A stretch of 52,794 bases of DNA from positions 1-52,794 of the forward strand of contig JAJEHL010000047.1 of NCBI GenBank assembly GCA_022823725.1. Direction: 5' to 3'. Both the position numbers and the translations under genes were made by a program. Under the pieces are notes generated by a model. The model was not told the origin of the DNA and did no database searches. It saw only the letters and a list, made by a program, of their open reading frames with translations. Below, in pieces: positions 41,546 through 52,794 of this stretch. The first letter of the stretch is position 1. Each line of letters opens with the position of its first letter. The stretch comes from Candidatus Latescibacterota bacterium. GTDB lineage: Bacteria; Latescibacterota; UBA2968.

Positions 41546-43441
41546 TTGAATTCCAAATTTGAACAGGGCGGCGAAGTGAGTACGCCTCATCGCGTGCTTA
41601 CAGGCAAGCATCAGGTGCTTGTTCTCATTGTGGGGGTTTGCCTGTCTCTGTTTCACCTGTGGAGCAATACGCTGGGTGTTTTGCCCGAATTGCAGCGCAA
41701 TGCCGTCCATTATGCCTTCATTCTTTTTTTGGGATATCTGTTTTATCCCGTTTCTACGCGCTATGCCTCGCGCACGCTGATTCTCGATTATTTTTTCGCC
41801 ATCCTATCTGTTGCCGTCGCCCTTTATCTCGTGTTTTTTGAAGATGCGCTGCACGCTCGCAACGAAGTGCCGAATACGGCTGATCTCATTTTTGCGGGTA
41901 TTGCGATTCTCCTTTTGCTCGAGATTACGCGTCGTACGACTGGTTTTTTTATTCCTCTGCTCGCGCTTGTATTTCTCACGTACGCGCTTTTTTGGGGGCA
42001 ATATATTTCGGGTATATGGACGTTTCCCGGTGTGTCATTCCCACGATTGCTCTACCGCATGTACTTTGCGCCCGATGGTATTTTTGGGACGATTGCGACT
42101 ATTTCATCTACTTTTGTCGCGCTTTTTGTGCTTTTTGGCGCGTTTCTCCTGCGTTCGGGTGCGGGCGATTTTATGATTCGTCTGGCGCTCGCGCTGCTGG
42201 GGCGCACGGTGGGCGGACCGGCAAAGATGGCGGTTTTTGCCAGTGGTATGCTCGGTTCAATTTCGGGAAGTGCTGTGGCGAATACGGTGGGGTCGGGTTC
42301 GCTTACTATTCCGATGATGAAACGCACGGGCTTTTCGCCTACGTTTTCAGGTGCGGTCGAGGCGGCGGCATCTACGGGTGGTCAACTCATGCCGCCGATT
42401 ATGGGCGCGGGCGCGTTTATTATGAGTCAGTGGACGCAAATCCCTTATTTGACTATTGTCGCCGTGTCTTTTATCCCCGCGCTTATCTATTTTCTCAGTG
42501 TGACCTTTTTTATTCATTTTCGCGCGCGAAAACGGGGGATTGCGCCCTTACCTGCTTCGGAACTCCCAAATATCCGTGATACGATCCGAGAAGGCTGGCA
42601 TTTTGCGATTCCTATTGCTGTACTGGTGGGTACACTGATCTACGGTTTTACTCCCACATTTGCGGCGGCAACGGGAACGGCGAGTATTGTTGTGACGAGT
42701 TGGTTGAATAAGAACACGCGCATGAATATCCGCGATATTGTCGATGCACTTGCGCTGGGTGCTCACAATATGATTACCACTGGTATTATTCTTTTGTGCG
42801 CGGGTATTATTGTGGGCGTGGTGCTGATGGTTGGTGTTGGGATCAAATTTTCTTTGCTGATTTCGGCGATTGCCGGAAGCAGTGTGCTTATTACTGTTGT
42901 GCTCATTGCCATTGCGTCTCTGATTTTGGGCATGGGTTTGCCTGTGACGGCTTCTTATATCGTACTCGCGGTGTTGGCCGCGCCTGCGCTGACCAATCTG
43001 GGGGTGAGTCTGATTGCGGCGCATTTGCTGATTTTTTGGTATTCACAAGATGCCAATGTCACGCCGCCGGTTTGTCTGGCTGCGTATTCTGCTGCGGGTA
43101 TTGCGGGTGCGAATCCGCTGCGTACGGGTTTTGAGTCGTGGCGCATTGCCAAGGGTATTTATTTTATTCCCTTGCTTTTTTGCTATACGCCCATCCTTTT
43201 TGAAGGGGAGACCTGGCGCGTTATCGAGACAGCGATCGCTATGCTTCTGGGGCTGCTGGCTTTTGCGGCGGCTTCTGAGGGGTTTCACATGGTGGCGCTG
43301 GGTGTGATATACCGCGTTTTATTCCTATCGGCAGCGGTGCTGTTGCTTTGGCCCTTGCTGATATGCCACGCTGTTGGAGCGGCGATTTTTCTCGTTCTGG
43401 TGTTGGTGCAAAGACAGGCCAGGTCTATCCATCTCAATTAG
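41546..43441 (+). CDS. TRAP transporter fused 4TM/12TM permease
   Basis: The 631-aa protein (TTG at 41546; GTG at 41576 possible) joins the small and large TRAP membrane subunits, as usual for TAXI systems. About 16-17 helices are evident. The DctM-like part contains GRTVGGPAKMAVFASGMLGS, SGSAVANTVGSGSLTIPMMK, AAASTGGQLMPPIMGAGAF and LGMGLPVTASYIVLAVLAAP. It imports the ligand delivered by the neighbouring binding protein, driven by a sodium or proton gradient. The two genes form a complete TAXI-TRAP system. The 250 bases downstream contain two hairpin repeats. Confidence 0.93.
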   Translation: MNSKFEQGGEVSTPHRVLTGKHQVLVLIVGVCLSLFHLWSNTLGVLPELQRNAVHYAFILFLGYLFYPVSTRYASRTLILDYFFAILSVAVALYLVFFEDALHARNEVPNTADLIFAGIAILLLLEITRRTTGFFIPLLALVFLTYALFWGQYISGIWTFPGVSFPRLLYRMYFAPDGIFGTIATISSTFVALFVLFGAFLLRSGAGDFMIRLALALLGRTVGGPAKMAVFASGMLGSISGSAVANTVGSGSLTIPMMKRTGFSPTFSGAVEAAASTGGQLMPPIMGAGAFIMSQWTQIPYLTIVAVSFIPALIYFLSVTFFIHFRARKRGIAPLPASELPNIRDTIREGWHFAIPIAVLVGTLIYGFTPTFAAATGTASIVVTSWLNKNTRMNIRDIVDALALGAHNMITTGIILLCAGIIVGVVLMVGVGIKFSLLISAIAGSSVLITVVLIAIASLILGMGLPVTASYIVLAVLAAPALTNLGVSLIAAHLLIFWYSQDANVTPPVCLAAYSAAGIAGANPLRTGFESWRIAKGIYFIPLLFCYTPILFEGETWRVIETAIAMLLGLLAFAAASEGFHMVALGVIYRVLFLSAAVLLLWPLLICHAVGAAIFLVLVLVQRQARSIHLN

Positions 43442-43548
43442 AATTGATGTTACGCAACTCTAAGTAACGTCATGTGTGACTTTAGAATAATGGTGAAAAC
43501 AATAAGCAATCAGTGGTCAGCAGTCAGCAAAACAAGGATTTTAGAGCC

Positions 43549-43646
43549 GTCATTGCGGCAGGGGGTTAGCCGCAATCCAGAGGTTTTGACCCCTGCTCAA
43601 AATCATACAGAGCCTGCCCCGTAGTGTTTTAATACGGGGGGCAGGC
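43549..43646. repeat. Intergenic palindromic repeat copy 3 and strong hairpin
   Basis: GTCATTGCGGC (43549-43559) and GCCGCAATCCAG (43569-43580) repeat the element at 37440, including the AGAGGTTTTG flank. A second hairpin follows: GCCTGCCCCGTA (43612-43623) with TACGGGGGGCAGGC (43633-43646). Its right arm resembles a single-arm sequence GGGGGCAGGCCTGAA near 680. The region separates the TRAP operon from the kinase gene. Confidence 0.7.
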
Positions 43647-43695
43647 TTGAAGCCGCGATCCAGTGTTTGCTTTTTATCCGTATTTAGTTACTTCT

Positions 43696-46600
43696 ATGTT
43701 TGAAATCGGCACTATTCTCGACAAAAGATACCAAATCCGGGCGCATCTGGGAGCCGGGGGCATGGGAGAAGTTTATCGGGTTCTGGACCTGGAGCAAGAC
43801 CAGGACTGCGCGCTTAAAATTTTGAATGAAATGATGGACGAGCAGGCTGTGTGCCGCCGTTTTCACAGAGAATTTCAAGTGTTGAGCAGATTTCAGCATC
43901 CGCGCCTGGTACGCACATACACCTGGGGCTTTGCCGAAGATCGCCCCTATTTTACAATGGACTATTTACCCGGAAAGACATTGGAAAAAATTATTGCCGA
44001 TCCTGCACTGTTGGGGCAGTTCCGGGCGTCCCACTTTTTTGCTCTGATGCAACAACTTGTCGAGGGTTTGGCATACATCCATGCGCAGGGTGCGGTGCAT
44101 CGCGACCTCAAACCATCCAATATTATGGTATTGGAAACGGAAGAGGGGATTGAGACCACCATTCTGGATCTGGGGTTGGCGAAATTCAAGCATCTGCATA
44201 GCGCTTCTATTACGCAGACGGGTGCGACGATTGGTACGGCAGAATATATGTCGCCAGAGCAAGGTAAGGGGTTGTGGGTGGATCATCGGTCAGATTTGTA
44301 CTCATTGGGCGTGATTTTATACGAGATATTCACGGGCGCGCCACCCTTTTCTGGACAAAATCCGGTATCCGTTATTATGAAGCATATTCGAGAGTCACCG
44401 CCACCAATAGACAAAGTCAATATCGCTGTTCCCGAACAGATGAAACAAATTGTGTTGAGGTTGCTGGCAAAGGAGCGTGTTGATCGTTATCAATCGGCAG
44501 AGGAGTTGGTGCAAGCCTTAAAGAATGTAGCACCATCGGAACTTGTGCTGCTGGAGGACGAGCAACGCGATATGCCCCTGAAAATCATGCGCCCGCAATT
44601 TGTCGGGCGTGAATCTGAGATGAAGACGTTTCTCACAATGTTAAAGGATGTACAGGCTGGGAAGCAGCGCGTGGTTCTGATCTCTGGTGAGCCGGGTGTG
44701 GGTAAATCGAGACTAATTGAAGAACTATTGGGTGACGCTTTGATCCACGATTTTTTGTGTTTGAAAGGCGCAGGGCAGGAAGAGGGTGGGCAAATATACG
44801 GTGCGTTGAACGATGCTTTTCGGCAGGTAAAGACGACGGATTTGGTGGGGCGAGTGCCCGATTCAGTAGAGACGGACAAGTTTTCTGTTATGGAGCGCTG
44901 GTTGCAGTTATTAAAGCATCTGCAGCAGAAACAGCCTGTCGTGTTGTGTTTGGAAGATATTCAATGGCTTGATGAATTGACATTGGAATTTTTGCAGTAT
45001 GTGTTGCGTGATCCAGAACCGTGCCCGTTCTTATTATGCCTGACTTGCCGATGGTCTAACGTGGAATCCATTCCAAGCGAAGTTGAAAATTTTATATACG
45101 GTAATGAATTTGCCGAAGCGACCCAGATGCAGTTGGAAAATCTATCACAAGAAGAGGTGGGGTATTTAGCGGCGTCGATGTTGGGGGAGCGATCTATACC
45201 ATCCGATGCACTGCAAAACCTGTTCAGAGAAACGGGTGGGCAACCTCTGTTTGTCGTGGAGGCTGTGAGGACACTGGTGCATGTCGATGTGGTTCGTCAG
45301 AATGTGTACGGCGATTGGCAGTGGGGAGAATTTCCCGAAACCCTGTTGTCCAATGATATTTCAGAGGTTTTATACAGGCGCATAACTGCCCTGTCTGCGA
45401 TGCAACAGCGGGTGCTGGAATATGCCTGTGTCTTTCTCAATGATTTTTCTTTTGAATTATTGGCTACGATTTGGCGCGGCGATGAGTTGGAACTGTTAGA
45501 TGTACTGGACGACCTGATTACAGAAGGGCTTTTGGAGGCTTGTGGAGAAGCTGAAGATCGATATCGATTTTCACAGGAGTTGTATCGTCGTGCGATTTAC
45601 AATCGTATTCAAGATGTGCGTCGTCGTCTGTTGCATCGAGAAATTGGCAATGCTTTAGAAAAGACGGAAGACGCAGAAGAATTCACGGAAGAATTGGCGG
45701 ATCATTTTGCGGCGGCAGGAGAACAAGATAAAGCTGTGAAATATGCACGCTTGGCAGGCAAAAAAGCATTGGAGGTACAAGCCTATCGCCAGGGATTGAT
45801 GCGCTTTGAGGCTGTACGAGAATGGACAGCGGATGACGTTTTTGAATTACCCGAAGATGCTATTGATTTTTTGTGCGATTATGCAGATGTGTTGCGCAAT
45901 TGTAGTGAATACAATATAGCACTGGAACTTTTGGACGAAGCAAATGCATTATTGCCCGCTGATCGGAAAGATTTGAAAGCGCGTATTTTAAACGACCAGG
46001 GTGAGATTCACAGCGTACTTCAACATGGTGAAATTGCAGAAGGATATATGTTGGAGGCATTGCAGCTTTATCGTGAAACCGGTGATCTCGATGGCGAAAT
46101 TCAGACGTTAAGTAGCTTGTCTTATTTGTGCGATGTGTCAGAAAGGCACAAGGATGCTGCTAATTATGTACGTCAATATATCGAAAAACAACAGAAGCGA
46201 GATTCTGACGCGCATAATCAGACTGACGTTCAAAGGTCTAAAGGCCAACTTGCCTTAATCGAATTTCGATTTGAGATAGCAAGAGTACACTTGGAAGAAG
46301 TCTTAAGGACATCTCAACAAGTTGGATTTGAACACCACCGCATAGGGACACTCAATTTACTTCAAAGAATTTATTTTTATCTGGGTGAATGCGATCGTGC
46401 GGAAGCGGTTTGCAATGAAAACATTGGAGAGTGCCAGAAGCGAGGGATTATATATTGGGAAGCAGCAAATTTCTTATGGCTGGGAGAATTGGCACTGGAA
46501 CGAGGTGATTTTGCCGAGGCATTGGAATCCGCCGAGATTTCAGTGGAGCAATTTTTGCAAACACCGCGGAAAGATTATGTTTATCGTGCTTATGCGATTG

Positions 46601-48525
46601 CGGCAACGACTGCTGCAAAAATGGGAGATACAGAGACGGCTCTTGAATGGGCAAAAAAAGCCAGTGAAGGTGTGCAGCAAACATCGGGTATGTACACGGG
46701 CATATTGCCCCTGGTGTATTGTGGTATTGGTGTTGCTTTGGCTCAAGCGGGGCGGATAACTGAGGCTGAAGAGGCTTTTGAGCAGGCTATTGAATGCCGA
46801 AGAGAATCCAAAGGCGATCACTGGGCACGTGCATTGCTGATGGCTGGAGAGTTTTATCTTGAGCGCGGTGATATGACAAAGTCTCAAGCACATCTTGAAG
46901 AGGCAAAACAGGCATTTGGAGAAATGGAGATGTCTTATTTTCAGGAGAAAACACAGGTGTTATTAAATCAATTATCTCGCGACGAAGATGGTCGAGGCAG
47001 GGATGCCATATCCAGTTCTGAGGTTTCGGTTGGTACGTTATCTGTAGATCGCTGGCATTTGCTCTACGATATGAGCCAGGAATTGACAACAGAACACGAT
47101 GTCAAGGTACTATTGGATCGAACTTTGGGCAATTTGTTGGCTGTTTATTCAGCAGAGCGCGTGCTTGTTGCAATTAAAAATGATACCCCAAAAGACTTTG
47201 TGGTTGATGTGGTGCGTCACCACAATTTAGAATCGAATGATGCAGAAGAGTTGAGTGGGGGTATTATTCGTCGGGTTATTGAGACAAATGAACCCGTTTT
47301 GAGCCTTGATGCACAAATAGACGACAGGCTAAATCAGTATCAGAGTGTGATAGATTACAATATTCGGTCTGTATTGTGTGTGCCCCTATTTCATGTTAAG
47401 GATGGTGTTATCGGTGCGCTATATGTAGATCATCGCGGTATCGGCAACGCATTTTCTGAAGCAGATCAGACGTTTTTGCAGGTATTTGCAAATTTGGTGG
47501 GGGTAGCATTGGTCAATGCGAGGATGTACGAACGATTGGAAGAGAAAGCACAATATTTGCAGCAAGAGGTCGAAAGACGGCACCAACTCGGTGGTCTGTT
47601 TGGACAAAGTGATGCGATGCAGGCAATCTACTATCTGATAGAAAGGGCTGCAAAGAGCGATATTCCCGTGCTTGTGCAGGGCGAAACAGGTACGGGAAAA
47701 GAATTGGCTGCGCGTGCCATACACTACAATAGTACACGCAAAGATCAGCGATTTTTATCGCAAAATTGTGCTGCTCTTTCACCAGAGTTGCTGCAAAGTG
47801 AGTTGTTTGGGCACAAAAAAGGAGCGTTTACAGGAGCGACTGAAGATCATAAGGGGATTTTTGAAGCGGCTGATGGGGGTACGGTTTTTTTGGATGAAAT
47901 CGCCGATGCCCCGCCGCAGTTGCAAAGGAGTTTGTTGCGGGTGTTACAAGAAGGGGAGATTCGGCGTGTGGGAGAAACAGAGGATCGCGCAGTGGATGTA
48001 CGCATTATTGCAGCGACCAATCGAGATTTAAAAAAGGAAGTTGAAGAAGGTTCTTTCCGCGAAGATTTGTATTATCGGTTGCATGTGATTCAGATCGATA
48101 TGCCGCCTTTGCGAGAACACCTTGAAGATGTGCCGTTATTGGCCGAATATCTGCTCATTCGGATAAAAGAAAGTGTAAACAAGTCGGTTGGTGGGCTGAC
48201 AGTAGGTGCAATCAGGGCACTTACAAGTTACAACTGGCCTGGCAATGTGCGCGAGTTGGAGAATGAGATTCGGCGTGCGGTTGCATTGGCAGAAGAAGAG
48301 GGTGCTATTACGCCCGATTTGTTTTCGGAAGCTGTCGGGCACGCAGTGTCAGGTGTCTCTGTCGAATACCAGGGGCGTTTACAAGATCGTATGCAGGAGT
48401 ATGAGAAACGGTTGATTATGGATGCACTCGAGAAATGCAAGGGCAATATTACGCATGCGGCCGAAGAACTGGGGGTGGCACGCATTAGCTTATATAGGAA
48501 GATCAATCGTTTGGGGTTGAGATAG
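43696..48525 (+). CDS. Ser/Thr kinase - STAND ATPase - TPR - GAF - sigma-54 activator fusion
   Basis: From the ATG at 43696 (MFEIGTILDKRYQI) the protein is 1609 aa; upstream in-frame codons add nothing recognisable. Domain order: Hanks-type kinase (residues 15-290; GAGGMGEVY, Lys in ALKIL, HRDLKPSNIM near 135, DLGLAK, GTAEYMSPEQ); AAA_16/STAND ATPase (about 305-600; Walker A GEPGVGKS near 332, Walker B VLCLEDIQWLDE near 416); TPR-like helices (about 700-1110); GAF (about 1125-1275); sigma-54 AAA+ domain (about 1300-1530; GETGTGKE near 1329, GAFTGA near 1376, GGTVFLDEIAD near 1394); Fis-type HTH (last 35; CKGNITHAAEELGVARISLY). It can therefore sense a ligand, phosphorylate proteins and activate sigma-54 RNA polymerase. 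A sigma-54 promoter lies directly downstream. Confidence 0.93.
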   Translation: MFEIGTILDKRYQIRAHLGAGGMGEVYRVLDLEQDQDCALKILNEMMDEQAVCRRFHREFQVLSRFQHPRLVRTYTWGFAEDRPYFTMDYLPGKTLEKIIADPALLGQFRASHFFALMQQLVEGLAYIHAQGAVHRDLKPSNIMVLETEEGIETTILDLGLAKFKHLHSASITQTGATIGTAEYMSPEQGKGLWVDHRSDLYSLGVILYEIFTGAPPFSGQNPVSVIMKHIRESPPPIDKVNIAVPEQMKQIVLRLLAKERVDRYQSAEELVQALKNVAPSELVLLEDEQRDMPLKIMRPQFVGRESEMKTFLTMLKDVQAGKQRVVLISGEPGVGKSRLIEELLGDALIHDFLCLKGAGQEEGGQIYGALNDAFRQVKTTDLVGRVPDSVETDKFSVMERWLQLLKHLQQKQPVVLCLEDIQWLDELTLEFLQYVLRDPEPCPFLLCLTCRWSNVESIPSEVENFIYGNEFAEATQMQLENLSQEEVGYLAASMLGERSIPSDALQNLFRETGGQPLFVVEAVRTLVHVDVVRQNVYGDWQWGEFPETLLSNDISEVLYRRITALSAMQQRVLEYACVFLNDFSFELLATIWRGDELELLDVLDDLITEGLLEACGEAEDRYRFSQELYRRAIYNRIQDVRRRLLHREIGNALEKTEDAEEFTEELADHFAAAGEQDKAVKYARLAGKKALEVQAYRQGLMRFEAVREWTADDVFELPEDAIDFLCDYADVLRNCSEYNIALELLDEANALLPADRKDLKARILNDQGEIHSVLQHGEIAEGYMLEALQLYRETGDLDGEIQTLSSLSYLCDVSERHKDAANYVRQYIEKQQKRDSDAHNQTDVQRSKGQLALIEFRFEIARVHLEEVLRTSQQVGFEHHRIGTLNLLQRIYFYLGECDRAEAVCNENIGECQKRGIIYWEAANFLWLGELALERGDFAEALESAEISVEQFLQTPRKDYVYRAYAIAATTAAKMGDTETALEWAKKASEGVQQTSGMYTGILPLVYCGIGVALAQAGRITEAEEAFEQAIECRRESKGDHWARALLMAGEFYLERGDMTKSQAHLEEAKQAFGEMEMSYFQEKTQVLLNQLSRDEDGRGRDAISSSEVSVGTLSVDRWHLLYDMSQELTTEHDVKVLLDRTLGNLLAVYSAERVLVAIKNDTPKDFVVDVVRHHNLESNDAEELSGGIIRRVIETNEPVLSLDAQIDDRLNQYQSVIDYNIRSVLCVPLFHVKDGVIGALYVDHRGIGNAFSEADQTFLQVFANLVGVALVNARMYERLEEKAQYLQQEVERRHQLGGLFGQSDAMQAIYYLIERAAKSDIPVLVQGETGTGKELAARAIHYNSTRKDQRFLSQNCAALSPELLQSELFGHKKGAFTGATEDHKGIFEAADGGTVFLDEIADAPPQLQRSLLRVLQEGEIRRVGETEDRAVDVRIIAATNRDLKKEVEEGSFREDLYYRLHVIQIDMPPLREHLEDVPLLAEYLLIRIKESVNKSVGGLTVGAIRALTSYNWPGNVRELENEIRRAVALAEEEGAITPDLFSEAVGHAVSGVSVEYQGRLQDRMQEYEKRLIMDALEKCKGNITHAAEELGVARISLYRKINRLGLR

Positions 48526-48553
48526 ATGTTGAACGAATGTATCATTTTGTAAC

Positions 48554-48573
48554 AGTATATCATTTAAGTTACA
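48554..48573. promoter_or_regulatory. Candidate enhancer site, copy 1
   Basis: AGTATATCATTTAAGTTACA matches 48635-48654 at 16 of 20 positions. It also overlaps an inverted repeat TGTAAC (48548-48553) and GTTACA (48568-48573). The site lies about 210 bases upstream of the sigma-54 promoter, in an A/T-rich stretch just after the activator gene, where bacterial enhancer-binding proteins usually bind. Confidence 0.4.
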
Positions 48574-48634
48574 GTTTATTTATATTTATATAAATCAGTC
48601 AGTTATGCATATTTTGTTTAGATGAACGATTAGA

Positions 48635-48654
48635 AGTATATCATATTAGATACA
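48635..48654. promoter_or_regulatory. Candidate enhancer site, copy 2
   Basis: AGTATATCATATTAGATACA is the second copy of the 20-bp direct repeat, 81 bases after the first. It runs into an imperfect palindrome TTAGATACACTTGTGTCTAA (48646-48665). It lies about 130 bases upstream of the sigma-54 promoter. Confidence 0.4.
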
Positions 48655-48716
48655 CTTGTGTCTAAATGTCGCATTTGCAACACAAATAATTTTTAAATTT
48701 TATCTATCTGTTTTTC

Positions 48717-48748
48717 AAGCACTTGAGCACATTCAGGTGCTTTTTTTT
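48717..48748 (+). terminator. Rho-independent terminator upstream of the sigma-54 promoter
   Basis: AAGCACTTGA (48717-48726) pairs with TTCAGGTGCTT (48732-48742), with one wobble, and eight T residues follow. It would end the transcript of the giant kinase gene and insulate the promoter that begins 17 bases later. Confidence 0.75.
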
Positions 48749-48764
48749 ATCCTAAAACGATTTT

Positions 48765-48779
48765 TGGCACGTATTTTGC
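48765..48779 (+). promoter_or_regulatory. Sigma-54 (-24/-12) promoter
   Basis: TGGCACGTATTTTGC matches the consensus TGGCACG-N4-TTGC, with exactly 10 bases between the GG and GC doublets. Transcription should start near 48791 and run into the DUF218 and GWxTD genes. The adjacent upstream gene encodes a sigma-54 activator with an intact GAFTGA loop. Confidence 0.85.
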
Positions 48780-48815
48780 GAGATGTTTATCTTTGATTTT
48801 AGATCAAACAATAGG

Positions 48816-49559
48816 GTGTACGAAGAATGGCTCAGCGGGTTCGTGTTCTGCGTTCTGGTATTAATTCTCCCTATCCTTTCATTTGTTATGCCCAACACTC
48901 GTCTGGCATCAATGCGGTGGTTGGTGCTGACATCGGGAATGATTCTTCCCTGCTGCTTCATATTGCTAATATCATTCTCCAATGTGTGTTTTATTCTCGA
49001 TTATCCTATCCGTATTGCTTCCACGCCAAGACCCGCGGATGTGATCGATATTGGTGGACAGGGAAGTTTTCCCCTGAGTTTTGATTTGGGTGCCGATCTT
49101 TTTCATGCAGGCTTAGCCTCAAAAATAGTGACATTCGTCCCTAATAGAAAACCCTATTCTTCGTATTTACGCCAGACTCTTTCAATACCACCTGATGCCA
49201 TTATATGGGCGAGGGGTAAGTCTAATAATACATTAATAGAAGCATCCTCACTCGCCAAATTGTGTAGGGACAATTCCTGGGATAGCGTAATCCTGGTCGC
49301 AGACTCCCATCGTATGTTTCGGAAATCCAGGGCTTTTATTAAAGCAGGTGTTCCGATAGTTTATCCTGCAAATGTTCCTGGGGATCAACAGTGGATGGCT
49401 CCTGCGAAGTTTATAGGTGTGAGTCAACAGGCCTATTGGGATCTAAATGGTTTCGAATGTGACTGGTCTATTCTTCAGCAATTTCGACACAAGATGGTGA
49501 TCCGGACACTGCACGAATATTTGGGAATTATTTTTTACGCGGTCATTGGATACATTTAG
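48816..49559 (+). CDS. DUF218 (ElyC/SanA/YdcF-like) membrane protein
   Basis: The open frame reaches back to an ATG at 48783, but that lies before the expected sigma-54 start site (about 48791), so the GTG at 48816 (V-Y-E-E-W) is the more likely start. Two N-terminal membrane helices (FVFCVLVLILPILSFVM and WLVLTSGMILPCCFILLI) precede a DUF218 domain: ADVIDIGGQGSFPLSFDLGA, SNNTLIEASSLAKLCRDN and SVILVADSHRMFRKSRAFI. The N-T-x-E-[AN] motif and the [TS]-x-x-x-H-M-x-R motif are conserved in the family. E. coli ElyC and SanA act in envelope and peptidoglycan homeostasis. It is the first gene behind the sigma-54 promoter. Confidence 0.75.
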   Translation: MYEEWLSGFVFCVLVLILPILSFVMPNTRLASMRWLVLTSGMILPCCFILLISFSNVCFILDYPIRIASTPRPADVIDIGGQGSFPLSFDLGADLFHAGLASKIVTFVPNRKPYSSYLRQTLSIPPDAIIWARGKSNNTLIEASSLAKLCRDNSWDSVILVADSHRMFRKSRAFIKAGVPIVYPANVPGDQQWMAPAKFIGVSQQAYWDLNGFECDWSILQQFRHKMVIRTLHEYLGIIFYAVIGYI

Positions 49560-49672
49560 TAATGCCTTCAAAAGGCTTGTCTTTAGACTTACCCCCAAGT
49601 AGCATCACTATTTTGCAATTTCGATTGCTTTTATCACATTTCGCAGGTTTCACAATAGATAAGGAGGAAAAC

Positions 49673-52153
49673 ATGAAAGCAAGATTAGCAATTTATACGG
49701 GTTTTACACTGCTGATTTGCATCTTTGGCACTAACCTGGCCAAAGGGGAAACCACAATAGATGTGTTGTTTCAGAATGCAATGGAGCAAGTTGATCAGGT
49801 GAGTCGAGCAGAAAGCATTGTGGCTTTGGAGGAGATTATTTCCAAAGATAAAAATTATGCGCCTGCATACAACGAATTGGCCAAACTACATCTGTTGGAC
49901 CACACCATAAATGGCAGACAGCGCGCAATGCAAATGATACAGCAGGCAATCGCAAGTGACCCCGACAATATTGAGTATCAGCTAATGCGAGGAAAGATTT
50001 TGTGGCATCAAGGCTTTCGGTCACGCGCCTTGAACCAATTCAAAGACCTGACCAAAAAGCATCTGAAAAATACGGTTGTCCTCAATAGTATAGGTATGTT
50101 TTTAGTGTATGATTTCCTATCACAGAAAGATAGAAGAGCGCCATTGAAAGATATGGACATGGGGTCCTTGGTACCACATTACAAGGAAATGGCAATGAAT
50201 CATAGGATAGAAGATTTCAAGACCTTTGCCCAAGAATCCAAACAAGAAGCAGTGCAGGTCCTGCGAAAAAGCATCCAATTGGATGCCACCAACCAGCAAT
50301 CCTATTATTTGTTGGGCATCCTCTACTTTGAAGATGAGAATTGGAATGCGTTTCAAACCTTGATGCAAGACTTGTACGCGCACCACCCAGATGACAAAAA
50401 TGCGCTCTTGTTCTGTGGGCTTGCCGCCTATCAGATTGGCGAGTTCAATGATTCACATGAATACTATCAACGCGCCCTTGACTTGATGCGTGTTGAAGAA
50501 CGCGAGTTGCTCGAATCTATTGACCTGCTTGTGCCTGAAGAAGGGCATGCATCTCGCGATACGACGCAGACGATTGATGCGCTCTTGGAACGCGAGATGT
50601 TTTGGAAGCGCCAGGATCCACTGTATTTGTCTGATTTTAATGAAAGAAAAATGGAGCACTTTGGTCGCATAGCGTATGCGAATTTGCGGTTCAGGCGATT
50701 TTCAGATGATGTTGAAGGCTGGCAGACGGATATGGGGAAGACCTATATCAAATTTGGAAGATACAGACGTCGCGTGACAACCTATAAAGGGACCTGGGAT
50801 TCTGAAAAGGTCTTGGTGGATGCTGCAATGATAGAGTTCTGGTATTACGAAGACTTTCAGTTCAAATTTTGTGGCACTACGGATGATATCTGGCGTTTTT
50901 GCGGCGGTGCTGTAGGCTACCTCCCAAACGCGGTGCCTGCAATAGAAACCAGTGGTTTTACGATCACGAATAGAGTAGAGAAAGATGCTAAGAGGAGGAT
51001 ACGACCGTATTTTATGCGGAGAATATCACCGGGTTCCCTTGTTCCACCTGCATCTATATTGACAGAAGCCCCGCATCATATCTTCCGAAAAACAGCCCAA
51101 CGGTTTGTCGATCCTTACCTCAATCGCAAATACATCCTTCCCCATCAGATCGCCGCCTTTGAAGAACGAGACAGTATGCGGGTCGAACTCAGCTATATGA
51201 TTCCCAAATACCGATTAAAAGAAAATCCCGAAACGGGCAAGGTGCGTTTTTGGGATGGGGTGTTCTTCTTTGATCAGCACTGGAATGAGGTGTATAAATA
51301 TCGCAAATCCGTGAGCTTTGCATTGCCGCCGCAGAAGCCAGCCTCCAATGCTGCTGCACGACATCGCAACGATCACCTGTTGATCTCCCGCACATTGTTT
51401 GTACCTCAAGGCGGCTATCATGTTTCTGTAGAATTATTGGATCAGACATCCGGCGCAATTGGTATTGCACGCAATGAGGAACAATTTTTGTATGACCAGG
51501 AGCCTTTTCATCTGAGTAATCTGCTCGTCGGCAGCGATATTCAAACAAAGAAAGCATTGCCAGAAAGCCGTGGTGATTTGCACATCACCCCCAATCCAGT
51601 TCGCACATTTTCACCATCTGAATCGGTCTTTATCTATCTGGAACTGTATGATCTCCAGCGCGACGATTTTGGCAGCACGCAATATGAGATCTCCTACACC
51701 ATCGGCAAGCCAGAGGTAGATACGCTATCGCCTACGTTATTCGCTTCTCAAGATCTGATTGAGACGATGGGTAAAACAGAGATTGATCTGGAGAGTGAAC
51801 AAGCAGACCAAATTGCTGCCGAGGATTTGCAGACCGGACAATCACGGGATGGTGATGAAATCAGTAGCGTATTTCCCGATAGCGATATATGGGGGGAGAC
51901 AAGGGTTTATACGAGTGGTGGGCAAGTCCATCACATCGCTGCTGAGGACTTGAAGATCAAAAGATCACAAGATGGAGACTTAACGCGAACTGTGACAGCC
52001 AATTACGAAGGCAATCGAGCAGATGACTTTACGTATTTGCAGATTGATGTGAATCAGGTGCCTGAAGGAATTTACCAACTGACGGTGCTGGCGAGGGACA
52101 AGCGGACTGAGCAGACGGATAGGAAATACGTCTATTTCCGTATTGTCGAATGA
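49673..52153 (+). CDS. Exported TPR/GWxTD-domain protein
   Basis: From the ATG at 49673 (AAGGAGG just upstream) the protein is 826 aa; the frame open to 49562 is leader. A signal peptide is visible (MKARLAIYTGFTLLICIFG, cleavage near AKGE). Residues about 30-290 are TPR-like (NYAPAYNELAKLHLLDH, QSYYLLGILYFEDENW, NALLFCGLAAYQIGEF). The GWxTD domain follows: RRFSDDVEGWQTDMGKTYI near residue 350, with an EFWYY motif and a beta-rich C-terminal half resembling the usual GWxTD beta domains. A 14-residue motif, IAAEDLQTGQSRDG, recurs as IAAEDLKIKRSQDG near the C-terminus. GWxTD proteins are found in Latescibacterota, Gemmatimonadota and relatives; function unknown. Likely the main output of the sigma-54 operon. 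Confidence 0.82.
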   Translation: MKARLAIYTGFTLLICIFGTNLAKGETTIDVLFQNAMEQVDQVSRAESIVALEEIISKDKNYAPAYNELAKLHLLDHTINGRQRAMQMIQQAIASDPDNIEYQLMRGKILWHQGFRSRALNQFKDLTKKHLKNTVVLNSIGMFLVYDFLSQKDRRAPLKDMDMGSLVPHYKEMAMNHRIEDFKTFAQESKQEAVQVLRKSIQLDATNQQSYYLLGILYFEDENWNAFQTLMQDLYAHHPDDKNALLFCGLAAYQIGEFNDSHEYYQRALDLMRVEERELLESIDLLVPEEGHASRDTTQTIDALLEREMFWKRQDPLYLSDFNERKMEHFGRIAYANLRFRRFSDDVEGWQTDMGKTYIKFGRYRRRVTTYKGTWDSEKVLVDAAMIEFWYYEDFQFKFCGTTDDIWRFCGGAVGYLPNAVPAIETSGFTITNRVEKDAKRRIRPYFMRRISPGSLVPPASILTEAPHHIFRKTAQRFVDPYLNRKYILPHQIAAFEERDSMRVELSYMIPKYRLKENPETGKVRFWDGVFFFDQHWNEVYKYRKSVSFALPPQKPASNAAARHRNDHLLISRTLFVPQGGYHVSVELLDQTSGAIGIARNEEQFLYDQEPFHLSNLLVGSDIQTKKALPESRGDLHITPNPVRTFSPSESVFIYLELYDLQRDDFGSTQYEISYTIGKPEVDTLSPTLFASQDLIETMGKTEIDLESEQADQIAAEDLQTGQSRDGDEISSVFPDSDIWGETRVYTSGGQVHHIAAEDLKIKRSQDGDLTRTVTANYEGNRADDFTYLQIDVNQVPEGIYQLTVLARDKRTEQTDRKYVYFRIVE

Positions 52154-52235
52154 ACAATGGATAAAAATTTTTAGATTATGTACTGACTGGCGTCCTATAT
52201 GCATTTGAAAATTTATATGCTAATTATCTCGTATA

Positions 52236-52254
52236 ATATCATTCAATGTGATAT
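52236..52254. promoter_or_regulatory. Inverted repeat upstream of the BlaI-type gene (candidate operator)
   Basis: ATATCA (52236-52241) and TGATAT (52249-52254) form a perfect 6-bp inverted repeat with a 7-base spacer. It overlaps a TATAAT at 52232-52237 and ends 12 bases before the ATG. BlaI/CopY repressors bind such dyads over their own promoter. Confidence 0.45.
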
Positions 52255-52266
52255 AAGGAGCAAAGA

Positions 52267-52629
52267 ATGGCAAGACTGCGCCAAGAGGGATTGACCGCCC
52301 GCGAGATGGAACTTATACAGGTACTCTGGCAACAGAAAGAAGCAACTGTCGAGATGATCCAGGCAAAATTGCCCGATCAATTAGAAGGATCAACCATTCG
52401 CACACTGTTGCAGATTATGGAAGACAAAGGCTATGTGGCACACGAAAAGCAAGGACGCGCCAATGTGTACCGCCCCATAATCGAACAACATTTGGTTCAA
52501 TCTGTAGCACTGAAATACATCATTCGAAAACTGTTTGGGGGGTCAGCCGAACTGCTGCTGGTGCGACTGGTTAAAGATGGAGGGATTGGTTTGGACGCTG
52601 TGACAAGATTGTGTAAAAAACTCAAGTAA
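52267..52629 (+). CDS. BlaI/MecI/CopY-family transcriptional repressor
   Basis: The 120-aa protein starts at an ATG behind AAGGAG. It has the winged-helix pattern of the family: LTAREMELIQVLWQQKEATV, EMIQAKLPDQLEGSTIRTLL, QIMEDKGYVAHEKQGRANVY and the tail RLVKDGGIGLDAVTRLCKKL. BlaI-type repressors are normally inactivated by a BlaR1/M56 metalloprotease encoded next to them; here the next sequence is an IS remnant, so the partner is displaced or absent. The candidate operator is just upstream. Confidence 0.92.
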   Translation: MARLRQEGLTAREMELIQVLWQQKEATVEMIQAKLPDQLEGSTIRTLLQIMEDKGYVAHEKQGRANVYRPIIEQHLVQSVALKYIIRKLFGGSAELLLVRLVKDGGIGLDAVTRLCKKLK

Positions 52630-52702
52630 CGACCAAAACAGGTCAGGTCCACGCGGTCAAGTCCAAAAAGTTCTGTAAAATTGTAGCTCCGTGAAATAGG
52701 GG

Positions 52703-52794
52703 TCAGAGATTCTGTTTTAAATACCTCATGTCCAGATAGCGTCTGCCGGTGATCCATTCTTCAGACCACTCCATACACAAGGCGCCGATCAGAC
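52703..52794 (-). CDS. Transposase C-terminus (IS256/mutator-like), cut by window edge
   Basis: On the minus strand the window end encodes the last 30 residues of a transposase, including GALCMEWSEEWITGRRYL and ending RYLKQNL before a TGA at 52705-52703. The GAxxxEx-x-x-EWxxGRRYL pattern is the usual C-terminus of IS256-family transposases. The flank contains GTCCAAAAAGTTCTGT at about 52660-52675, which resembles an IS256-type terminal repeat. Only the 3' end is present, so intactness is unknown. Confidence 0.75.
   Translation of the reverse strand, partial: LIGALCMEWSEEWITGRRYLDMRYLKQNL

Follow-up and report, generated by a model that had tools for sequence, protein, structure and literature searches.

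A kinase-fused sigma-54 activator with its own enhancer–promoter module in Candidatus Latescibacterota, a probable switch for peptide operons, and its apparent rearrangement onto DUF218 and GWxTD genes

Control of natural-product genes by sigma-54 has been described for Nla28 of Myxococcus xanthus, where repeats for a bacterial enhancer-binding protein (bEBP) lie 5' of sigma-54 promoters of biosynthetic genes; the targets are polyketide synthase and nonribosomal peptide synthetase (PKS/NRPS) clusters, and one regulator serves several loci (PMC7910581). In sponge Latescibacterota, ranthipeptide clusters were called by antiSMASH (PMC12993501), with no mention in that paper of their control by sigma-54 or a kinase, and no report of such control of ribosomally synthesized and post-translationally modified peptides (RiPPs) in Latescibacterota was found in the literature searched. 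The stretch analysed here, referred to as the window, is the whole contig JAJEHL010000047.1 (52,794 nucleotides) of the Candidatus Latescibacterota assembly GCA_022823725.1, that is, contig C32 of a 98%-complete genome of 5.34 Mb in 51 contigs. It contains the gene of a kinase-fused sigma-54 activator, followed by putative operators, a terminator, a sigma-54 promoter, a DUF218 gene and a TPR/GWxTD gene; all features with an orientation lie on the forward strand. The analysis makes it likely that the sigma-54 switch is genuine, that its usual output is a RiPP operon and that the window copy was rearranged onto a truncated DUF218 gene and the GWxTD gene.

The activator gene (43663–48525), identified by Pfam domains, motifs and homologues, encodes a protein of 1620 aa with the domain order Pkinase-AAA_16-TPR-GAF-Sigma54_activat-HTH_8, in which Pkinase occupies residues 23–284, AAA_16 residues 312–453, GAF residues 1148–1283, Sigma54_activat residues 1313–1478 and HTH_8 residues 1579–1616. 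The kinase HRD and DLG motifs, two Walker A motifs, GAFTGA and the arginine-finger region are all intact, and the AAA+ domain, with its Walker motifs and GAFTGA loop, assigns the protein to the bEBPs. The Fis-type helix-turn-helix domain (HTH), encoded at 48397–48510, has the recognition helix VARISLYRK.

Three putative 18-bp operators follow, namely, operator 1, TGTATCATTTTGTAACA (48538–48554), recognized by alignment with the operators of 17 other loci, and operators 2, TATATCATTTAAGTTACA (48556–48573), and 3, TATATCATATTAGATACA (48637–48654), recognized by repeat analysis and alignment; their centres are at about -245, -226 and -145, respectively. The sequence-only reading of this DNA had described two copies of a 20-bp direct repeat. 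These are real (48554–48576 and 48635–48657, 83% identity over 23 nt, 81 nt apart), and a third, less perfect copy at 48538–48554 had been missed. Each repeat is a dyad whose position is kept at every homologous locus. An intrinsic terminator of the activator gene, with 11 pairs and a T-run, lies between the operators and the promoter (48717–48742) and is conserved at all loci. The sigma-54 promoter TGGCACG-TATT-TTGC (48765–48779), with a predicted transcription start at 48791, matches 11 of the 11 specified bases and has GG at -24 and GC at -12, 10 bp apart, in the context TGGCACG-N4-TTGC. The gene rpoN is present on contig C40 (Sigma54_AID, 50 bits). The terminator and the near-perfect promoter of the sequence-only reading are borne out, and rpoN, whose absence would have spoken against that reading, is present.

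Throughout the genome, 29 exact sites TGGCACG-N4-TTGC were found, compared with 2 for the reversed pattern; 23 of the 29 are intergenic according to the open reading frame (ORF) map, and the start codon, where it is close behind the site, is most often 42–60 nt after it. The chance expectation for such a site in the 240-bp gap behind the activator is about 1e-4. Elsewhere in the genome, the window-type operator has only 2-mismatch matches, mostly scattered, one of which is an operator of the activator copy on contig C35. No RNA families were found in 43000–52794. An IHF-like site, AATCAGTCAGTTA, spotted by eye between operators 2 and 3, is inexact in the TGCAT operator class and is not claimed. 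Further exact sigma-54 sites 40–60 nt before start codons were noted on contigs C2, C18, C29, C35, C46 and others (L084–L111), and the genes behind them encode, for example, an ABC-type ATPase (L103), a permease-like protein (L098) and a response-regulator-like protein (L104).

The switch is not confined to the window. Two activator paralogues, 78–80% identical to the window copy, are located on contigs C33 and C35 of the same genome, each with a homologous terminator, operators and promoter, followed by a precursor gene and a radical-SAM gene. The relatives compared were Candidatus Latescibacterota metagenome-assembled genomes, including chromosome OX638329, one of which bears the name Poribacteria; judging from sample names and literature, the lineage is probably marine and sponge-associated. 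Activator copies, mostly 79–85% identical, were found in 9 of 10 other genomes of the same genus, and full-length copies at 42–44% identity in three genomes of another family (G015–G017). The regulatory module is about 80% identical at 17 other same-genus loci, with unchanged order and spacing, so that at 18 site-bearing copies, including the window, three operators are followed by the conserved terminator and the -24/-12 promoter. As separate observations, the C35 activator (L079:8565-13477) is split into two overlapping ORFs by a frameshift or assembly error, while its RiPP operon is intact, and on the G007 chromosome (577 kb) an activator copy (L145:5582-7440) has an internal deletion that fuses an N-terminal remnant to the C-terminal half; neither a sigma-54 site nor a RiPP follows this copy.

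Comparison of the copies showed that operator sequence follows the recognition helix. Helix TR(A/V)GLQKK (10 copies) is accompanied by TGCAT...ATGCA operators, TRVGLHKK (5 copies) by TGTAT-type operators, TRVGLYKK (1 copy) by TGTAAAC...GTTTACA operators, and ARISLYRK (3 copies, including the window) by T(G/A)TATCAT-type operators; helix class agrees with operator class at 19 of the 19 loci compared. One copy, G007b, is placed within a Gln clade (support 100/99) and carries the His helix and TGTAT operators while keeping the CTGG centre of its clade, which suggests a local change and not a copy taken from the His clade. The activator tree implies at least 3 joint changes of helix and operator, of which only 2 are on well-supported branches. 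The simplest reading is that the HTH domain binds these dyads and that the copies have diverged in specificity. Conservation of the module at 18 loci, the fixed positions of the operators and their change together with the helix strongly support the view that operators, promoter and activator form one cis circuit, a sequence module that is real and that probably functions.

At 17 of 17 other intact loci of the genus, a precursor ORF of 58–69 residues stands behind the promoter, starting 28–59 nt after the sigma-54 site with a GGAGG-like ribosome site in front. The 17 precursors share the conserved leader MATRRKLTLINGxID, a single invariant Cys and an acidic tail in which VPxxxFP is conserved. 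Wherever the contig goes on, the precursor is followed by a SPASM radical-SAM maturase with a PqqD-like N-terminus, about 90% identical among loci. The best NCBIfam model for the maturase is the SCIFF maturase TIGR03974, below cutoff (264.7 vs 425), and the PapB model NF047865 is likewise below cutoff (229.5 vs 340). The sister loci accordingly combine a leader-bearing short precursor with an adjoining modifying enzyme that has a recognition element, and the ordinary target of the switch is, by its parts, a RiPP operon, whose peptide would be modified by the maturase. No relic of a precursor or maturase gave a match in the window, so the window copy lacks the parts of a RiPP operon, and the genome as a whole contains three activators and only two such maturases.

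Two further features of the RiPP locations were noted. In one of the two conserved locations, a second, short sigma-54 activator (AAA+ and HTH_8, without a sensor domain) is encoded directly after the radical-SAM gene (L078:12566-13600, C33; equivalents in L143, L147, L148 and L151), and a UvrD-like helicase gene comes next. In the other, the next gene encodes a methyltransferase-like protein of about 300 aa (L079:5450-6358, C35; equivalents in L144, L149 and L157), a candidate tailoring enzyme whose likeness was seen by eye, with no Pfam match.

In the window, the place of the RiPP operon is taken by other genes, and the change of homology falls within the promoter. A recombination joint with shared TATTTTGC is placed at 48771–48779; to its left the window is homologous to RiPP loci, and this homology ends within the promoter, while to its right it is homologous to DUF218 genes elsewhere. 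DUF218 orthologues, 90–94% identical, are located elsewhere in G002, G003, G005 and G009, and homology of the relatives' DUF218 regions to the window starts inside the promoter, at 48771 (G005 and G009) or 48773 (G002). In G005 and G009, the DUF218 ORF is 36–37 codons longer at its 5' end, begins with ATG, has a signal-like N-terminus and has no -24 element in front. In G002, this TTTTGC borders on a repeat, which is probably an insertion-sequence end. Since the relatives' homology starts in the promoter and the longer ORF of G005 and G009 lacks the -24 element, the -24 half is derived from a RiPP-type promoter, TTTTGC is common to both sides, and DUF218 has been truncated. A second copy of TATTTTGC at 49609–49616, on the right-hand border of the DUF218 segment, forms an 8-bp direct repeat with 48772–48779; the sequence fits an inserted DUF218 cassette with an 8-bp target duplication at both edges, a pattern inseparable from that of microhomology recombination. 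Multi-copy repeat sequence, again probably an insertion-sequence end, forms the contig edge (52655–52794), and its 95% identical copy is the one abutting the DUF218 joint in G002.

The remaining DUF218 ORF (48783–49559) has a weak, above-cutoff Pfam match to YdcF-like PF02698 (32.9 vs 27.6 bits, profile positions 46–133 only), in agreement with the sequence-only reading. The ATG at 48783, replaced by ATA or GTA in relatives, precedes the predicted transcription start; within the predicted transcript, in-frame initiation is first offered by GTG at 48816, which has no clear ribosome site and is probably the usable start. The TPR/GWxTD protein had also been named correctly: its ORF (49673–52153, 826 aa), identified by profile match and paralogues, exceeds the cutoff of NCBIfam TIGR04514 (54.0 vs 28) and is below that of Pfam PF20094 (17.4 vs 26.9). 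It starts at 49673, behind the ribosome site AAGGAGG, and not at 49562. No paper with the word GWxTD was found in the literature searched. The next gene (52267–52629) encodes a BlaI/MecI-type repressor, recognized by Pfam and by comparison with contig C23, where GWxTD paralogues, 76–78% identical, adjoin BlaI/BlaR1-like genes and have the same companion. On C23 (L073:7000-16800), the genes of a BlaI repressor and of a large BlaR1-like/thioredoxin-domain protein lie between two GWxTD genes, with TGCTAATTATTTCGC repeats upstream, an arrangement which reads as a BlaI-type regulon of GWxTD proteins.

In the proposed mechanism, 48526–48779 would be the enhancer–promoter of a self-contained, duplicated sigma-54 switch, whose upstream gene would encode a one-component bEBP with a Ser/Thr kinase, a STAND-like ATPase/TPR sensor and a GAF domain. 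The Fis-type HTH would bind the three dyads, and on a signal the AAA+ domain would remodel sigma-54 polymerase at the promoter, with RNA starting near 48791. Recombination at the promoter TTTTGC would have removed the RiPP operon and put in its place a block with the 5'-truncated DUF218 gene and the GWxTD gene. The switch, if still firing, would now transcribe both, the GWxTD gene being presumably the better translated. Most likely, the window switch either now transcribes truncated DUF218 and GWxTD or is a relic.

Several findings weigh against the rearrangement of a functional RiPP switch. The window operators are less symmetrical than most other copies; with 2 well-supported independent changes, the association of helix and operator is not significant by sign test; and the joint was seen in one assembled contig only, which could be a chimera. 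The DUF218 frame is open, with a ratio of nonsynonymous to synonymous substitution (dN/dS) of about 0.15 against relatives, and the new arrangement could therefore be useful rather than debris. Moreover, GWxTD genes also occur behind this activator in G015 and G016, which belong to another family: there, TGTATAC dyads, a terminator and TGGTACG-N4-TTGC lie behind the activator homologue, and GWxTD/TPR genes come next (a tandem of three in G015), while G017 retains the precursor and maturase behind its activator homologue. Either GWxTD genes were repeatedly brought under the switch, or, once the RiPP operon had been lost, they were just the next genes along.

The alternative that survives best, itself unlikely, is a decayed locus, in which the RiPP operon was lost, the promoter is a non-functional relic and the GWxTD gene is controlled by the adjacent BlaI-type repressor. 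The truncated DUF218 start, a weak hairpin directly 3' of DUF218 and the location of the C23 paralogues in BlaI/BlaR1-like loci with TGCTAATTATTTCGC repeats are in its favour, as are sister copies that are internally deleted (G007c) or truncated, such as the G001 locus syntenic with the window, which is also broken. Against decay, the activator ORF, promoter and operators of the window are intact, its branch in the activator tree is no longer than others, and no TGCTAATTATTTCGC copy was seen upstream of the window GWxTD gene. In the broken G001 locus (C167, L166:5131-7481), a GCATTATTGCAG-like microhomology marks the point, at about residue 767, where the activator is cut, and short ORFs behind the cut encode similar acidic peptides.

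It is improbable that the activator evolved for an envelope response through DUF218 and GWxTD as a functional, selected circuit. Every part is indeed intact and co-oriented, DUF218 is under purifying selection relative to its relatives, and in G015 and G016 a homologous activator with its sigma-54 site precedes GWxTD genes. Nevertheless, the genus places a RiPP precursor there at every other intact locus, the DUF218 5' end is lost with its ATG before the predicted transcription start, and none of the 13 other GWxTD genes found in the genome has a sigma-54 site in the 600 bp scanned upstream of each, so that sigma-54 control of GWxTD genes as a rule is rejected. The GWxTD genes of G015 and G016 represent a different subfamily, with about 32% identity to that of the window, and hundreds of bases of seemingly non-coding sequence separate them from the site. 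Of the complete circuit claimed by the sequence-only reading, the regulatory half is well supported and the assignment of DUF218 and GWxTD as its evolved targets is not; the envelope response was drawn from adjacency only. Very doubtful, finally, is a wrong assembly of the activator locus to a DUF218/GWxTD contig at TATTTTGC. In its favour, 8 bases are shared at the joint, both the activator and the flanking repeats occur in several copies, and the contigs of relatives end at these same points. Against it, an overlap of eight bases does not suffice for a k-mer join, the nearly complete genome has no orphan third maturase, and the different joint at the same base in G002 suggests a real breakpoint.

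The rearranged RiPP switch thus remains the preferred explanation. It ties a kinase-sensing sigma-54 activator to a family of radical-SAM peptides in uncultured bacteria that are apparently sponge-associated, a connection of which the literature searched gave no report, and makes the window copy a possible case of promoter capture. A more general proposal, for which the chances seem evenly balanced, is that several parallel, insulated kinase-bEBP/RiPP switches, each with its own helix, operators and variant peptide, avoid cross-talk, and that the window switch was captured by new genes through promoter recombination. The 19 copies with readable operators provide a natural series on operator choice by Fis-type HTH domains. 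The locus is also a caution that a near-perfect promoter beside a gene may not have evolved to serve it.

Among known systems, one-component bEBPs of the NifA/NorR/PrpR type resemble the window activator in the combination of GAF, a GAFTGA-bearing AAA+ domain and a Fis-type HTH, and in dyad enhancers 5' of a -24/-12 promoter; unlike them, it has an N-terminal Ser/Thr kinase, an AAA_16 ATPase and TPR, and its matches to the NifA, NorR and PrpR models are far under their cutoffs. The TOMM system kinase/cyclase fusion (TIGR03903) is likewise a kinase-ATPase regulator adjoining a RiPP locus, whereas window-type activators have no cyclase domain, end in a C-terminal sigma-54 activator and score 287 bits against a cutoff of 706. 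Ranthipeptide/SCIFF-type maturases (TIGR03974, NF047865) share the PqqD-like N-terminus, radical SAM with SPASM and a short precursor alongside, but the sister-locus precursor has one Cys, not six in forty-five, and its maturase is below all curated cutoffs. The Nla28 system shares the bEBP repeats in front of sigma-54 promoters of biosynthetic genes; unlike in that system, the bEBP here is fused to a kinase, and its gene immediately precedes the operon presumed to be its target, which encodes a radical-SAM RiPP.

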